The notes beneath the pieces were generated by a model. That model saw nothing but the letters and a program-made list of their open reading frames with translations. It searched no databases and was not told where the DNA came from. From contig CAKRWT010000039.1 of assembly GCA_934418125.1 (NCBI GenBank), positions 1 through 23,803 on the forward strand: DNA of 23,803 bases, in the 5' to 3' direction. Source of the stretch: an uncultured Lachnospiraceae bacterium. GTDB lineage: Bacteria; Bacillota; Clostridia; Lachnospirales; Lachnospiraceae. Positions 1 to 12,974 of the stretch are shown piece after piece; position 1 is the first letter of the stretch; each line of letters starts with the position of its first letter. A program made the translations under genes and the position numbers.

Positions 1-414
1 AAAATGGGGGATAAAGATTAGAAATTTTTATAGCAAGGGATAGGAAAAATAAGAAGGGGAGAAAGGAAGTTTATCCTCCTAGCGTCCCCCTCAACCCCTC
101 ACATCATTATAATTCCCTCTTATAACGTACCCGCTCCCTTTGGCAACAGTAATCAACACCCCAAGGAGTTTGAAAAACTTTCCCCTAGCATCACCAAAAC
201 ACCCGATACATCCCCTTATCAATCAACATCTTTGACAGGATACGTAGTTTCTATTTCAGCCAGACTAATATAGTTGAGGTAATACATTGTTAAAAAAATA
301 ACAAATGCATATTGATTTGGAACTAAAGTAGGGAAGTCAGTAAAAAAGTCTTGCATTTTGTGTTTGTCAGCGTTCCAATGACATACACTGTAAAAACCTC
401 GTCTGGAGGATTAG
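1..414. other. Non-coding stretch inside the element end
   Basis: No convincing ORF was found on either strand. Roughly 70-235 is unusually rich in C runs on the plus strand (several CCCC tracts), followed by an A/T-rich part at 240-350. It may be the 3' flank of an unseen upstream gene plus the leader of the SHOCT-like gene. No repeat or tRNA was recognised. Confidence 0.5.
382..389 (+). promoter_or_regulatory. Candidate -10 (CATACACT) for the SHOCT-like/recombinase operon
   Basis: CATACACT lies 25 bases before the ATG at 415, and a GGAGGA ribosome site sits at 405-410, so a -10 here would give a sensible short leader. The octamer matches the CATACAnT -10 of Bacillus sigma-E promoters and partly the sigma-K -10. 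I see no good sigma-E, sigma-K or sigma-A -35 at the right distance; the nearest is TTGTCA, 14 bases from TACACT. Weak candidate. Confidence 0.25.
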
Positions 415-594
415 ATGGGAAAGGCATCTGAATTATCAAAGAACAGGGTAGTAACAGTGAAGAATGAGGGAGCAATCATAGGAGGGATTATTCGATTGCT
501 TTATCAGAATAACAGTTTAACAGAAGAGGAGTTCATAAACATTATGAGCCTAGTAAACACAGAGAGAAAAAGTCAGGAGGACAAAAGCGTATGA
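415..594 (+). CDS. SHOCT-like small protein coupled to the recombinase
   Basis: A 59-aa ORF starting at ATG 415 behind a strong GGAGGA (405-410). Its stop overlaps the recombinase start as ATGA (591-594), so the two are probably translated as a unit. The N-terminus is basic and beta-like (Lys-Asn-Arg-Val-Val-Thr-Val-Lys). The C-terminal half, from about residue 25, reads Ile-Arg-Leu-Leu-Tyr-Gln-Asn-Asn-Ser-Leu-Thr-Glu-Glu-Glu-Phe, which resembles the short helical SHOCT motif (leucines followed by a Thr-Glu-Glu-Glu-Phe turn). SHOCT motifs usually sit at protein C-termini and are thought to mediate oligomerisation. Coupling to the recombinase suggests an accessory role such as directionality factor or regulator; that is inference. 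No function is recognised with certainty. Confidence 0.7.
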   Translation: MGKASELSKNRVVTVKNEGAIIGGIIRLLYQNNSLTEEEFINIMSLVNTERKSQEDKSV

Positions 595-2489: not shown

Positions 2490-2509
2490 GGAAGGGGGTA
2501 TCCCCTTCC
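2490..2509 (+). repeat. Perfect 8-bp hairpin after the recombinase
   Basis: GGAAGGGG (2490-2497) and CCCCTTCC (2502-2509) are perfect complements around a GTAT loop, starting at the base after the recombinase stop. No T-run follows on the plus strand, so it is not a classical intrinsic terminator. It could weaken read-through, stabilise the mRNA, or belong to the recombinase-binding site at the element end. Confidence 0.6.
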
Positions 2510-2546
2510 AGTCGTAAAAAACTCCTAGAAACAGAATTCTTGTAAC
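2510..2546. other. Inferred hybrid attachment site (element/PBP junction)
   Basis: In the PBP frame (codons beginning at positions divisible by 3) there is a TAG at 2526, followed by Lys-Gln-Asn-Ser-Cys-Asn-Pro-Val-Phe. Class B PBPs are well conserved from the Asn-Ser-Cys-Asn onward, so the element/host crossover must be within about 2527-2545. Large serine recombinases exchange at a 2-base core, which I cannot fix from one end. The partner half-site should lie at the other element end, beside the N-terminal half of the PBP gene. Confidence 0.6.
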
Positions 2547-3227
2547 CCCGTATTTATTACCGTCGGGTTACGTATCGGGGTAGAACGATTCCATTCCTAT
2601 TTCAAACAGTTTGGTTTGCTGGAGAAGACAGGGATTGATTTACCGGGAGAAGCAGGGACTATTATGCATGATGTGGAGAATATCGGACCGGTGGAGCTGG
2701 CAACGATTTCTTTTGGGCAGTCCTTTCAGATAACACCTATCCAGCTTGCCACAACCGTTTCTTCTATCATAAATGGTGGCAGGAGAATTACACCGCACTT
2801 CGGGGTTAGTGTAGCAGACAGTGATGGCAGTAACCGACAGGAATTTGCTTATCCGGTCAGAGAAAATGTGGTATCCCAGGAAACATCGGAAACCATGCGC
2901 TATATCCTGGAACAGGTAGTAGCGGAAGGCGGTGGAAAAAATGGTTCCGTGGAAGGTTATCGGATAGGTGGTAAGACAGCAACCAGTCAGACACTTCCCA
3001 GAGGGAGTGGTAAGTATATTGCCTCTTTTCTTGGCTTTGCTCCGGCAGATAACCCTCAGGTGTTAGCGATTGCGATTATCCATCATCCACAGGGAATGTA
3101 TTATGGAGGACAGATTGCAGCCCCGGTGGTCAGACAGCTTTTTGAAAACATTCTTCCATATTTGGAGAAGATGGATTATAATAGACAGGGATTGGCAGAC
3201 CATACAGAAAATGGGTCTGGCTCATAA
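2529..3227 (+). pseudogene. C-terminal half of a class B PBP (FtsI/SpoVD type), split by the element
   Basis: Open frame encoding the last ~230 residues of a D,D-transpeptidase that cross-links septal or spore peptidoglycan. It keeps the SxN motif (Ser-Cys-Asn, 2538-2546), the conserved Lys-Thr-Gly-Ile-Asp-Leu-Pro-Gly-Glu segment, Ser-Phe-Gly-Gln, and the KTG-box region as Gly-Gly-Lys-Thr-Ala-Thr (Lys at 2973). The Ala in place of Gly I believe occurs in related Clostridia. The N-terminal anchor, dimerisation domain and Ser-x-x-Lys are missing. No PASTA domain follows the transpeptidase domain, unlike Bacillus SpoVD. A TTG at 2616 gives an ORF but has no ribosome site and would lack SxN, so independent translation is unlikely. 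The position directly before mraY is the usual place for ftsI or spoVD; I cannot say which. It is not decayed: the frame is intact to the stop, as expected if excision can restore it. Confidence 0.9.
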
Positions 3228-3245: not shown

Positions 3246-4202
3246 ATGAATTACACTATTTTAATATCCGTTATTTTGTCATTTGCAATCAGCGTGGTTT
3301 TAGGACCTATAGTGATTCCTTTTTTGAGGAGATTAAAGGTAGGGCAGACCGTGCGGGATGAGGGACCGCAGAGTCACTTAAAGAAAAATGGTACGCCGAC
3401 GATGGGTGGTATTTTGATTTTAATCAGTGTAGTGATAACATCTCTTTTCTTTGTGAAAGATTATCCGAAGATTATTCCGATTCTGTTTCTGACACTTGGT
3501 TTTGGTCTGGTGGGATTTTTGGATGATTATATTAAGGTAGTATTAAAACGTTCCATGGGATTAAGGGCATGGCAGAAATTTGCATTACAGATTGTGGTAA
3601 CGGGAATTTTTGTTTTCTATTTATTGCATTATACGGATGTTTCCCTGGCTATGAAGGTGCCGTTTTTAAATGGTGTTTATCTGGACTTTGGCTGGCTGAA
3701 TATTCCGATTCTGTTCTTCGTTGTAATCGGAACGGTAAACGGAACGAATTTTACCGATGGTCTGGATGGTCTGGCAAGCTCTGTCACGGTATTGGTAGCT
3801 ACTTTTTTTACGGTGGTAGCCATTGGAACCAACAGCGGAATCGAGCCGATTACCTGTGCAGTAGTGGGAGCTTTATTAGGCTTCTTGCTTTTTAATGTAC
3901 ACCCTGCCAGTGTTTTTATGGGGGACACCGGTTCTCTGGCGCTGGGAGGCTTTGTGGCAGCGACTGCGTATATGATGCAGATGCCGATTTACATTGTGAT
4001 TGTTGGATTTATTTATCTTATAGAAGTGGTATCTGTTATTCTTCAGGTATCTTATTTCAAAATGACAGGCGGGAAGCGGATTTTTAAGATGGCACCGATT
4101 CATCATCATTTTGAATTATGTGGCTGGTCAGAGACCAGAGTTGTGGCAGTCTTTTCGATTGTGACAGCATTGCTGTGTCTGGTAGCCTTAATGGGAGTAT
4201 AG
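3246..4202 (+). CDS. mraY: Phospho-MurNAc-pentapeptide transferase MraY
   Basis: 318 aa, about ten membrane spans. The enzyme transfers phospho-MurNAc-pentapeptide from UDP to undecaprenyl phosphate, forming lipid I at the inner membrane face. Visible family motifs are Pro-Thr-Met-Gly-Gly near residue 50, Asp-Asp-Tyr-Ile-Lys near 93, Asn-Phe-Thr-Asp-Gly-Leu-Asp-Gly near 165-175, Phe-Met-Gly-Asp-Thr-Gly-Ser near 224, and Pro-Ile-His-His-His-Phe near 285. Length is normal. ATG 3246 follows an AAGGAT-like site and lies 18 bases after the PBP stop, so it was built to be co-transcribed with the PBP gene. With the element in place, transcription from the native upstream promoter is interrupted. Confidence 0.97.
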   Translation: MNYTILISVILSFAISVVLGPIVIPFLRRLKVGQTVRDEGPQSHLKKNGTPTMGGILILISVVITSLFFVKDYPKIIPILFLTLGFGLVGFLDDYIKVVLKRSMGLRAWQKFALQIVVTGIFVFYLLHYTDVSLAMKVPFLNGVYLDFGWLNIPILFFVVIGTVNGTNFTDGLDGLASSVTVLVATFFTVVAIGTNSGIEPITCAVVGALLGFLLFNVHPASVFMGDTGSLALGGFVAATAYMMQMPIYIVIVGFIYLIEVVSVILQVSYFKMTGGKRIFKMAPIHHHFELCGWSETRVVAVFSIVTALLCLVALMGV

Positions 4203-10492: not shown

Positions 10493-11311
10493 GTGTATTA
10501 CAAATTATATATTGACAGTGTGTTTATGATGCAGCTTATTTTGAATCTGTATCTTCTGTCTTTGGCAGGAAAAGTCTTACGATGTACTGCCACGCATGTA
10601 AGGCTTTGGCTGGGGGCATTTCTGGGAGCACTCCTTTTTTGTATGATACTGATACTTCCCATAGGTTCTGTATCTTTAAGGGTTCTTCTGGGAGCAGTAC
10701 CTGTCAGTATGTGCATGATGTATGTGACATTTCATATTAAGTTAAGATTACTTTTCAGAAGCAGTCTGGTTATGGCAGGCTGTGGATTTTTTATTGGTAA
10801 TATCATGATATGGTTTCTCAACCGCTTCAGAATCTCTGTAAACAGGTCTGCAGGAATGGTGGGTACGCTGTTTCTGGGGTATTTGGGATATGTGGTCTGC
10901 ACGTTTTTGGTAAGCAGGCTCCAAAGAAGGCAGGAGAAGACAGAAAGAATCGTAAGGATTCCGGTTCTGGATAATAGGGAAAAGGTGCAGATAATGGCAT
11001 TGTTAGACACTGGAAATCACTTGGTGGATCCTGTCAGCGGAGCACCGGTCTGCATTATCAGCCAAAAGTTGGCAGACAGACTGCAACCTTGCCTGGTGCC
11101 GGAAAAGTATCATGTGATTCCTTATACCAGTGTAGGAAAGAAAAGGGGAATTTTACCAGGTTATGAAATTCCAGTACTTTATATTGAGGAACCGTATCAG
11201 GAGCTTAAAAAAGAGAATGTCATGATAGCTGTTTGTGATACAGGAATATCAGCGGATAGTCCCTATCAGATGATATTGAACCCCCGGTTATTAAAAACTA
11301 GGAGGAAGTAA
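10493..11311 (+). CDS. spoIIGA: Sporulation protease SpoIIGA (pro-sigma-E processing)
   Basis: 272 aa; GTG 10493 after GGAGGTG. The N-terminal ~150 residues hold about five membrane spans, beginning [10 protein letters not shown], typical of the family. The C-terminal part carries the aspartic-protease signature Leu-Leu-Asp-Thr-Gly-Asn-His-Leu-x-Asp-Pro near residue 172. SpoIIGA is a membrane-embedded novel-type aspartic protease that removes the pro-sequence of sigma-E in the mother cell after asymmetric division, when forespore SpoIIR signals. It lies one base before sigE (stop 11311, start 11313), as in other spore formers. Confidence 0.94.
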
Positions 11312-11312
11312 A

Positions 11313-12050
11313 ATGGTTTTAAAAGTGGCAATTCCAGAAAAAATACAGATAAAGATGGTTCATAAGGACAGACTTCTTATGACCAGACAGGGAGACATTC
11401 ATTATATAGGAGGGGCAGAGGTGCTGCCGCCACCCTTAGAGACAGATGAAGAAAATGAGATTATAAGTGTTCTTGGCACAGACGCAGAGGAGGAAGCCAA
11501 GACGATTCTGATAGAACATAACCTGCGTCTGGTGGTCTACATTGCCAAGAAATTTGACAACACCGGTGTGGGGGTGGAAGACTTGATTTCCATAGGAACC
11601 ATAGGACTGATTAAGTCCATTAATACTTTTAAACCGGATAAAAATATTAAGCTGGCAACATATGCATCCCGCTGTATTGAAAATGAAATTCTGATGTATC
11701 TTCGAAGAAACAGTAAACACAAGCTGGAAGTATCCATAGACGAACCCCTGAATGTAGACTGGGATGGTAATGAATTGTTACTCTCGGATATTCTGGGAAC
11801 GGATGAGGATGTGATTTATAAGGATTTGGAAAATGAGGTGGAACGCCGCCTGTTAGTAAAGGCGATTTCCAAGTTGTCGGAACGGGAACAGATTATCATT
11901 AAGCTTCGTTTCGGGCTGGGCAGTAAGGAAGATAAAGAACTAACCCAGAAAGAAGTAGCAGAAATGTTAGGTATTTCCCAGTCCTATATTTCCAGACTGG
12001 AGAAAAAAATTATGAAAAGATTAAAAAAAGAAATGACGAAGGAGGTGTAA
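11313..12050 (+). CDS. sigE: Mother-cell sporulation sigma factor SigE (pro-form)
   Basis: 245 aa; ATG 11313 with GGAGG inside the end of spoIIGA. Region 2 reads Asn-Leu-Arg-Leu-Val-Val-Tyr-Ile-Ala, then [10 protein letters not shown] and [12 protein letters not shown]. Region 4 ends [12 protein letters not shown]. These match sigma-E rather than sigma-K or sigma-A. The first ~28 residues are a pro-sequence. The mature start region is marked by [11 protein letters not shown], equivalent to the Bacillus processing neighbourhood. Active sigma-E runs the early mother-cell programme. Unusually, the next gene, sigG, faces it, with only 18 bases between stops and no terminator. Confidence 0.96.
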
Positions 12051-12068: not shown

Positions 12069-12848
12069 TTAAGCGGTCAGATAAAGGCGCATAGTTTTTA
12101 AGGCATTTTTTTCCAGGCGGGATACCTGAGCCTGGGATATGCCGATGCGGTCAGCCACTTCCATCTGGGTTTTGCCTTCGAAGAAGCGTAGGGAAATAAT
12201 TTCATACTCCCGTTCATTGAGTTTTTTCATAGCTTCGCTGAGGGAAATGTGTTCTACCCAGACTTCTTCCCGGTTTTTCTTATCACTAATCTGATCCATT
12301 ACATATAGCGTATCACCACCATCGGTGTATACTGGTTCATAGAGACTCATAGGACTTTGGATGGCATCCAGGGCATAGACGATATCTTCTTTGGCAACGC
12401 CGATTTCATCAGCTATTTCGGTAATGGTAGGTTCCTTGGCGTTCTTACGGGTAAGATGTTCTCTGGCATAGATTGCTTTATAGGCAGTGTCTTTCAGGGA
12501 ACGTGAGACACGGATACTGTTGGCATCCCGAAGATAACGTCTGATTTCACCTACAATCATAGGAACGGCGTAGGTGGAGAATTTAACATTAAGCGAAGCA
12601 TCAAAGTTGTCGATTGCTTTAATAAGGCCTACACAGCCTATCTGAAAAAGGTCGTCCACATTTTCGTTGCTGGAGTGGAATCGTTTGATAACACTTAATA
12701 CCAGGCGGAGATTACCATTAATATATTCTTTCCTGGCAGCTTCATCCCCATCTGTGATGCGTTTAAAAAGAGCTTCCTTTTCCGCATTTTTCAGAAGTGG
12801 GAGTTTGGAGGTGTTGACACCGCAGATTTCTACTTTTCCTTGTATCAT
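12069..12848 (-). CDS. sigG: Forespore sporulation sigma factor SigG
   Basis: 259 aa from ATG at 12846-12848 (minus strand), giving Met-Ile-Gln-Gly-Lys-Val-Glu-Ile-Cys-Gly-Val-Asn-Thr-Ser-Lys-Leu-Pro, which aligns with the start and length of Bacillus sigma-G. A 22-residue longer reading (to 12914) is not supported by the family. Region 2 has Asn-Leu-Arg-Leu-Val-Leu-Ser-Val-Ile and Asp-Asp-Leu-Phe-Gln-Ile-Gly-Cys. Region 4 has Gly-Ile-Ser-Gln-Ala-Gln-Val-Ser-Arg-Leu-Glu. The N-terminal Val-Glu-Ile-Cys-Gly-Val and Asp-Ala-Ile-Gln-Ser-Pro identify sigma-G rather than sigma-F. It drives late forespore genes such as small acid-soluble proteins and germination receptors. In Bacillus it follows sigE on the same strand; here it is inverted and convergent. 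Confidence 0.94.
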   Translation of the reverse strand: MIQGKVEICGVNTSKLPLLKNAEKEALFKRITDGDEAARKEYINGNLRLVLSVIKRFHSSNENVDDLFQIGCVGLIKAIDNFDASLNVKFSTYAVPMIVGEIRRYLRDANSIRVSRSLKDTAYKAIYAREHLTRKNAKEPTITEIADEIGVAKEDIVYALDAIQSPMSLYEPVYTDGGDTLYVMDQISDKKNREEVWVEHISLSEAMKKLNEREYEIISLRFFEGKTQMEVADRIGISQAQVSRLEKNALKTMRLYLTA

Positions 12849-12974
12849 GTAAGTACCTGACCTTTCTGAATTGTTCTTTTTGTATTCCTGTTGGAATCCG
12901 CTTTCTTTTATCAAGGATGTGCGAAAGTAAAAGAATTATTCATGAAATATTAAGGAAATCCGTAACAATGGTAT

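Follow-up and report, generated by a model that had tools for sequence, protein, structure and literature searches.

Analysis of a 23,803-nucleotide stretch of DNA from an uncultured Lachnospiraceae bacterium (GenBank assembly GCA_934418125.1, contig CAKRWT010000039.1; hereinafter, the window), together with related loci from other genomes, suggests that spoVD, a gene for a cortex PBP, is interrupted at its active-site codons by a skin-like element, apparently derived from an ICE/IME, that is likely to be excised in sporulation to rebuild the gene. Comparison of the split loci reveals a single insertion dinucleotide, a reading frame that is restored by deletion, constraint on both halves of the gene, the existence of natural intact alleles and retention of spoIVA. 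From these patterns, we infer that the element is excised, when and in which cell this happens, and what a small open reading frame (ORF) adjacent to the recombinase gene does. Under this scenario, the large serine recombinase of the element would recognise the SCN active-site codons of spoVD; in the vegetative cell, spoVD would be split and unused, with division served by an ftsI-like PBP encoded just upstream. During sporulation, the recombinase and a small co-encoded directionality factor would excise the element at an AA dinucleotide in the mother cell, rebuilding spoVD for cortex synthesis; the mother cell dies afterwards, so that the germ line would keep the element.

The recombinase-PBP junction

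The window starts within the element, the right part of which spans positions 1-2543; the left end of the element and the N-terminal half of the interrupted gene lie beyond the window edge. On the plus strand (591-2489), the element encodes a large serine recombinase of 632 amino acids (aa) with Resolvase and Recombinase domains (Pfam, 1.7e-19 and 6.6e-10, respectively); PF00239 and PF07508 match above the cut-off, and PF13408, the zinc ribbon that usually accompanies these domains, falls just below it (24.6 vs 25.3). The recombinase stop codon is followed by 54 nucleotides (2490-2543) which, judging from the right ends of related elements, constitute the right end of the element and hold the P arm of attR. 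Next comes the putative crossover dinucleotide AA (2544-2545), bases 1 and 2 of the Asn codon in Ser-Cys-Asn, where element DNA gives way to the C-terminal half of a class B PBP gene; the junction at 2544 is derived from the comparison of 41 right ends and is compatible with the attP symmetry seen in relatives, 28 of which have a complete site. The PBP frame opens right after a TAG at 2526-2528, includes NSCN at 2535-2546 and closes with a stop codon ending at 3227; the half gene (2535-3227, plus strand) is in frame from NSCN, with host sequence from 2544 on, as indicated by profile matches and by identity to the full-length protein P0242. The downstream neighbour, mraY (3246-4202, plus strand), starts 18 nucleotides past the PBP stop. 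Thus, the arrangement described in an earlier note on this DNA, namely, a recombinase gene, a PBP frame starting from Asn-Ser-Cys-Asn and mraY 18 nucleotides on, is confirmed by the ORFs and profile matches, and the split at the SxN active-site codons proposed there is refined, thanks to the relatives, to the AA of the Asn codon. Despite its likeness to the target, the AATTCTTGT preceding the AA is expected to be part of the element arm rather than of the host, because the bases before the AA at the right ends of relatives differ (CGC, GGT, GTC). An assembly artefact is ruled out: the split locus L003 (GAM79) resides in a complete-genome record, and many independent assemblies concur.

Identity of the split gene

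The PBP fragment covers positions 104-299 of the PF00905 profile, up to the end of the latter (1.9e-41); its top family is SpoVD (TIGR02214, 8.3e-69, from profile position 346), and the closest solved structure is that of C. difficile SpoVD (7rcz, 200.7 bits, with the runner-up at 82.6). The full-length natural proteins P0242 and P0121 score 556.6 and 551.9 against TIGR02214, their best family, and thereby stay below its cut-off of 688. The intact, Lachnospiraceae-like cluster L001 has the order mraW, a 180-aa gene, a 706-aa PBP, a 585-aa PBP (NSCN at 367) and mraY; the second PBP corresponds to the split gene, and its upstream paralogue scores 411.9 against TIGR02214. The order in B. subtilis is ftsL-pbpB-spoVD-(murE)-mraY, so that gene position also points to spoVD. 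On the strength of the best matches, including 7rcz, and gene order, the split gene is best read as spoVD.

Copies of PBP genes were searched for in 12 genomes behind 13 loci, nine of which carry the split gene and three of which carry the recombinase elsewhere. All nine split genomes contain both spoVD halves and a separate PBP (32-38% identity) whose reading frame is open over 694-781 aa, and none of the nine contains a second SpoVD-level gene; in all three genomes with the recombinase at another place, spoVD is intact. An ftsI-like PBP lies upstream of the spoVD N-terminal half in many loci and is intact in the relatives. The possibility that ftsI itself is the split gene is disfavoured by this further open PBP, found in nine of nine split genomes, often upstream of the N-terminal half. 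The earlier note called for a search for another ftsI or spoVD copy, and it is an ftsI-like gene that turned up, in the relatives; given the spoVD reading and the separate ftsI-like gene, the concern raised there that an essential PBP is disrupted is therefore removed.

Crossover site and computed excision

Each of the 28 complete sites has the AA of the Asn codon at its two ends, and all 41 right ends (the window and L002 included) have it at the same codon; it is preceded by TGT or TGC at the left ends and by variable bases at the right ends. A large serine recombinase would need an attP with inverted repeats. The attP arms at the 28 complete sites form inverted repeats centred on the AA, with 54% symmetry over 28 bp, compared to 26% for shuffled arms (maximum of 30% in 200 sets) and 25-29% when the centre is offset by 1-4 bp; the attB flanks show 39%. 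This result is tempered by the spread among individual sites, with values between 36% and 68%, and by arms paired across different loci, which are still 45% symmetric because the arm sequence is partly shared. In seven of the 41 elements (L020, L021, L024, L030, L047, L048 and L049), the TAA stop codon of the recombinase is formed on the crossover AA.

The window's own left end is out of view, and the joined-gene result comes from the relatives: in each of the 28 two-ended loci, computed deletion between the two AAs yields one closed spoVD ORF of 574-590 aa containing NSCN. The N-terminal half with a shared core that the earlier note predicted is thus found in relatives, and all two-ended loci join into an open gene. 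Without the deletion, the N-terminal half reads 4-60 residues into the element before stopping. Both halves are open and constrained, as would be expected if they were expressed apart and worked as a split protein; yet the cut falls inside the catalytic motif, the N-terminal half carries this extension into the element, and the right half in the window lacks a start codon close to the junction (the first, TTG, is at 2616), all of which makes such an arrangement hardly credible.

Natural intact alleles

Public assemblies hold full-length proteins nearly identical to the GAM79 joined product and to the half gene in the window. The natural protein P0121 (599 aa), which comprises 2607 member sequences, agrees with the product computed for GAM79 at 579 of 585 residues. 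P0242 (605 aa, 31 members), which reads TMNSCNP over the junction, is identical to the C-terminal half in the window at 228 of 230 residues. Among the 120 listed of 224 matches to the GAM79 recombinase, 119 reach an identity of 96.8% (rounded) or more. The full-length alleles represent empty sites, left by excision or without any previous insertion, and may come from element-free strains. They also fit phase variation, whereby reversible excision would occur in a subpopulation regardless of sporulation, giving a mix of spore-competent and incompetent cells; we consider this quite improbable given that the mother-cell gene target, the promoter-like motifs and the known precedents favour sporulation timing. 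Potential evidence of excision from a bin with two spoVD copies (G247) was discarded: over 816 bases, these copies share 85.5% identity, which points to a probably mixed bin.

Recurrence and host distribution

Scanning of GTDB genome contigs with the recombinase alignment and two short peptide patterns produced a sample of 55 recombinase loci. In 39 of these, the SpoVD C-terminal half follows the recombinase (in L009 and L019, it is partial and reaches the contig end); 15 lack it, and L056 matched over a short stretch only. With the window and an additional case, L002, filed as 'Bacteriophage sp.', the split loci total 41, and a junction that recurs to this extent goes beyond chance. The N-terminal half is also visible upstream in 28 loci, where the element is 3.4-10.5 kb long; in other genomes, the distance between the halves reaches about 25 kb, and G006 has them on two contigs. 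Neither of two scans of viral contigs yielded a relative, and among plasmids, four records gave short matches restricted to the mraY region. The two records filed as 'Bacteriophage sp.', L001 (MT835696) and L002 (MT835561), hold bacterial cell-wall and division clusters and look chromosomal.

Within three genus samples, each built around a known split genome, the gene is split in 8 of 60, 17 of 37 and 1 of 41 genomes, the last one being the centre itself. The first of these genera also includes 50 genomes with a full-length gene (G247 among them), one with spoVD in two pieces elsewhere and one without spoVD. A family-level sample of 200 genomes includes at least two split cases among the matches listed, one of them the centre genome. 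The two-piece gene (G242:C4:8813-10517) is broken at residue 283-286 rather than at the element site, which suggests a frameshift or an assembly error. The element is patchy among relatives and therefore not required.

A host tree of 46 rows built from three genes (L007, L015 and L045 were omitted as copies of L067, L071 and L073; two rows are of unknown state, and the intact row L058 comes from the mixed bin G247) implies at least five changes between the split and intact states. These changes, the patchy presence and the full-length alleles that match the split ones are all in line with an ordinary ICE/IME for which spoVD merely offers a conserved attB and which knocks the gene out, without developmental excision, an alternative that we deem unlikely in view of the constraint, cargo and spoIVA data presented below.

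Recombinase phylogeny

All 41 recombinases from the spoVD site form one clade in the tree with 14 others (SH-aLRT 100; L031 and L056 excluded). Within this clade, a long-branch subgroup unites the window, L003 and L002: the window recombinase is only 32-36% identical to those of ten kin with mraY identity of 87-93%, so the site has been occupied more than once or the element has been replaced. For instance, the window and L007 share 34% identity in the recombinase and 93% in mraY, which again is compatible with the comings and goings of an ordinary ICE/IME. Across 595 pairs, recombinase and mraY identities correlate at 0.56, and the correlation rises to 0.75 (528 pairs) without the window and L002. 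Three elements encode short recombinases, 284-289 aa in length, whose genes run up to the attachment core (L047:10001-10855, L048:3215-4084 and L049:10010-10873); no zinc ribbon match was obtained in a profile scan of those of L047 and L049. Conceivably, the three short forms are excision-only enzymes.

Sister recombinases occupy other sites in L031, L034-L039, L041-L044, L046, L050, L052 and L053. Among six of these that were read, an ABC transporter permease-like frame on the opposite strand is no more than about 300 bases away from where the recombinase ends in L031, L041 and L042, and such a frame is located about 1.4 kb from the recombinase end in L043.

Selection on the two halves

The dN/dS ratio of a dead gene should drift towards 1. 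For nine hand-picked close pairs of split relatives (15 loci, with L010 in three pairs and L004 in two), the dN/dS values are 0.016-0.057 for the N-terminal half of spoVD and 0.00-0.065 for the C-terminal half, compared to 0.026-0.064 for ftsI, 0.031-0.063 for mraY and 0.12-0.21 for the recombinase, a reading that assumes that the halves have been split ever since the common ancestor of each pair. The dS values span 0.38-1.62, the high ones being near saturation for the method; the recombinase dS is similar to that of the host genes, as expected for an element inherited in place. Constraint at this level on the two halves is evidence against a dead gene and against an old deletion. It also runs counter to simple inactivation by an ICE/IME: in pairs where both members are split, at dS of 0.4-1.6, the halves are as constrained as ftsI and mraY.

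The small ORF and promoter-like motifs

In 38 of the 41 elements, a same-strand ORF of about 40-120 aa lies shortly before, or overlaps, the start of the recombinase gene (assigned by BLAST clustering for 31 loci and by eye for the window, L002, L003, L022, L029, L032 and L051); it is unassigned in L047, L048 and L049. In the window, this ORF (415-594, plus strand, 59 aa) overlaps the recombinase start and shares a motif with the relatives, for which the consensus is QLLLxIxELLAQRGLISEEEK. An alignment of 30 sequences contains a single invariant column, with the window sequence 12-35% identical to the rest, and the pooled dN/dS for six pairs of relatives (window excluded) is 0.12. Pfam searches yielded no match for the window, L002 and L045, and a match to DUF6870 below the cut-off for L004. 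By its position, the small ORF could encode a recombination directionality factor (RDF).

Upstream of the small ORF, AATATT followed 11-16 nucleotides on by [ACG]A[AT][AT] occurs in 14 of 38 elements, compared with 1.6 for shuffled sequences (where none of 200 sets exceeded 6), and [CG]ATA.A.T occurs in 13 of 38, against 4.2. A stricter pattern, ATA-12/16-[CG]ATA...[AT], was detected in 8 of 38 (3.5 in shuffles, with 3 of 200 sets as high), and the fullest promoter pattern in 3 of 38 (0.2 in shuffles). Within 420 bases 5' of the recombinase, CATANNNT is present in 28 of 41 elements compared to 14.4 in shuffles, and a sigma-K promoter pattern in none of the 41 (0.45 in shuffles). These patterns were picked after viewing the alignments, the relatives are non-independent, and 11 of the 38 starts are a few bases off the start codon. 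The sigma-E-type motif fits some clades only. In the window, the sigma-E/K -10-box-like CATACACT (382-389, plus strand) lies 25 nucleotides 5' of the small ORF, within a conserved leader that the window shares with L003; without a clear -35 element, this is a weak candidate. Altogether, the sigma-E-like promoter signal in front of the small ORF is suggestive. In C. difficile, sigma-E promoters have ATA as their -35 motif (PMC3789822), and B. subtilis spoVD is counted among the sigma-E genes (PMC517825).

Cargo and sporulation context

ORFs of at least 120 aa were examined in ten elements. As cargo, 18 elements of different species, 4.0-8.0 kb in length, have in common three ABC transporter genes on the opposite strand, typed by Pfam on the L020 copy (L020:6826-9686) as PF04392, PF02653 and PF00005, which speaks against ordinary inactivating ICE/IMEs. 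The L007 element carries an ABC system for an extracellular solute along with sensor proteins, and reading by eye of the L006, L012, L013 and L051 cargo points to a glycerol kinase, Fic, DnaK and a symporter. Conjugation or mobilisation genes, as would suit an ordinary ICE/IME, are found in L005 (coupling protein and TrbL) and in L045 (a relaxase, presumably within the element, the left end of which is on another contig); L003 encodes a Mutator transposase. The 2.5 kb of the element in the window contain no visible conjugation or mobilisation genes.

SpoIVA (TIGR02836) matches 27 of the 28 split genomes, 26 of them above the cut-off, in a comparison that covers split genomes only; the 27th match starts at base 5 of a contig and is probably cut, and G228 gives no match. 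Such retention speaks against mere inactivation of spoVD and in favour of programmed excision. Further along the window, a spoIIGA-like gene (10493-11311, plus strand; TIGR02854 1.1e-32, under its cut-off) is followed by sigE (11313-12050, plus strand; above the NCBIfam cut-off) and by sigG (12069-12914, minus strand; NF006071 above and TIGR02850 below the cut-off). The antiparallel orientation of sigG and sigE is observed in the window, L003 and L013 and not in L051, the four sequences in which both genes were found.

Comparison with known intervening elements

Several elements with comparable properties have been described, and the proposed spoVD mechanism would resemble those of skin and gin. 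Like the spoVD element, the C. difficile skin splits a mother-cell sporulation gene and relies on a large serine recombinase (PMC5025042); its target, sigK, encodes a sigma factor rather than a cortex PBP, and its excision needs a separate RDF, for which the spoVD element has a candidate. The few spoVD elements read or scanned revealed no phage genes, a further difference from skin. The gin element in gerE of B. cereus ATCC10987 (PMC5595907) is likewise not a prophage and employs a serine recombinase with an extra factor (GirX), but it is 28.6 kb long, has three recombinases and a 9-bp core, and belongs to Bacilli, whereas the spoVD elements share AA as the sole common core, range from 3.4 to about 25 kb and possess one clade of right-end recombinases. 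Excision of SP-beta from spsM in B. subtilis (PMC4191935) similarly rebuilds a spore-envelope gene, although SP-beta is an active prophage, and yin in yabG of C. botulinum (PMC10747680) also resides in a clostridial sporulation gene but is prophage-like and targets another gene. In B. subtilis, spoVD is a secondary integration site of ICEBs1 from which excision is reported as undetectable (PMC3715440).

Among the titles and abstract openings of the open-licence literature, we found the elements in sigK, spsM, gerE and yabG and none intervening in spoVD. As far as searched, the novelty lies in the target gene, the host family and the apparent series from conjugative to small forms.

Implications

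A broader proposition, on which we are evenly divided, is that an ICE-derived family has been domesticated in several Lachnospiraceae lineages, with programmed excision from the spoVD active-site codons controlling cortex synthesis, and that some members have come down to an excision-only recombinase of about 285 aa plus vegetative nutrient-transport operons that would be discarded by the mother cell. Sporulation spreads gut commensals between hosts, and genomes with the split gene would be read as those of asporogenous strains with a broken gene. If excision is programmed, a cortex PBP joins the rearranged sporulation genes, dozens of compact sets of recombinase, att sites and candidate RDF with a known target dinucleotide become available, and the question of how a mobile element turns into a developmental switch would become testable over a graded series from conjugative to stripped-down forms.
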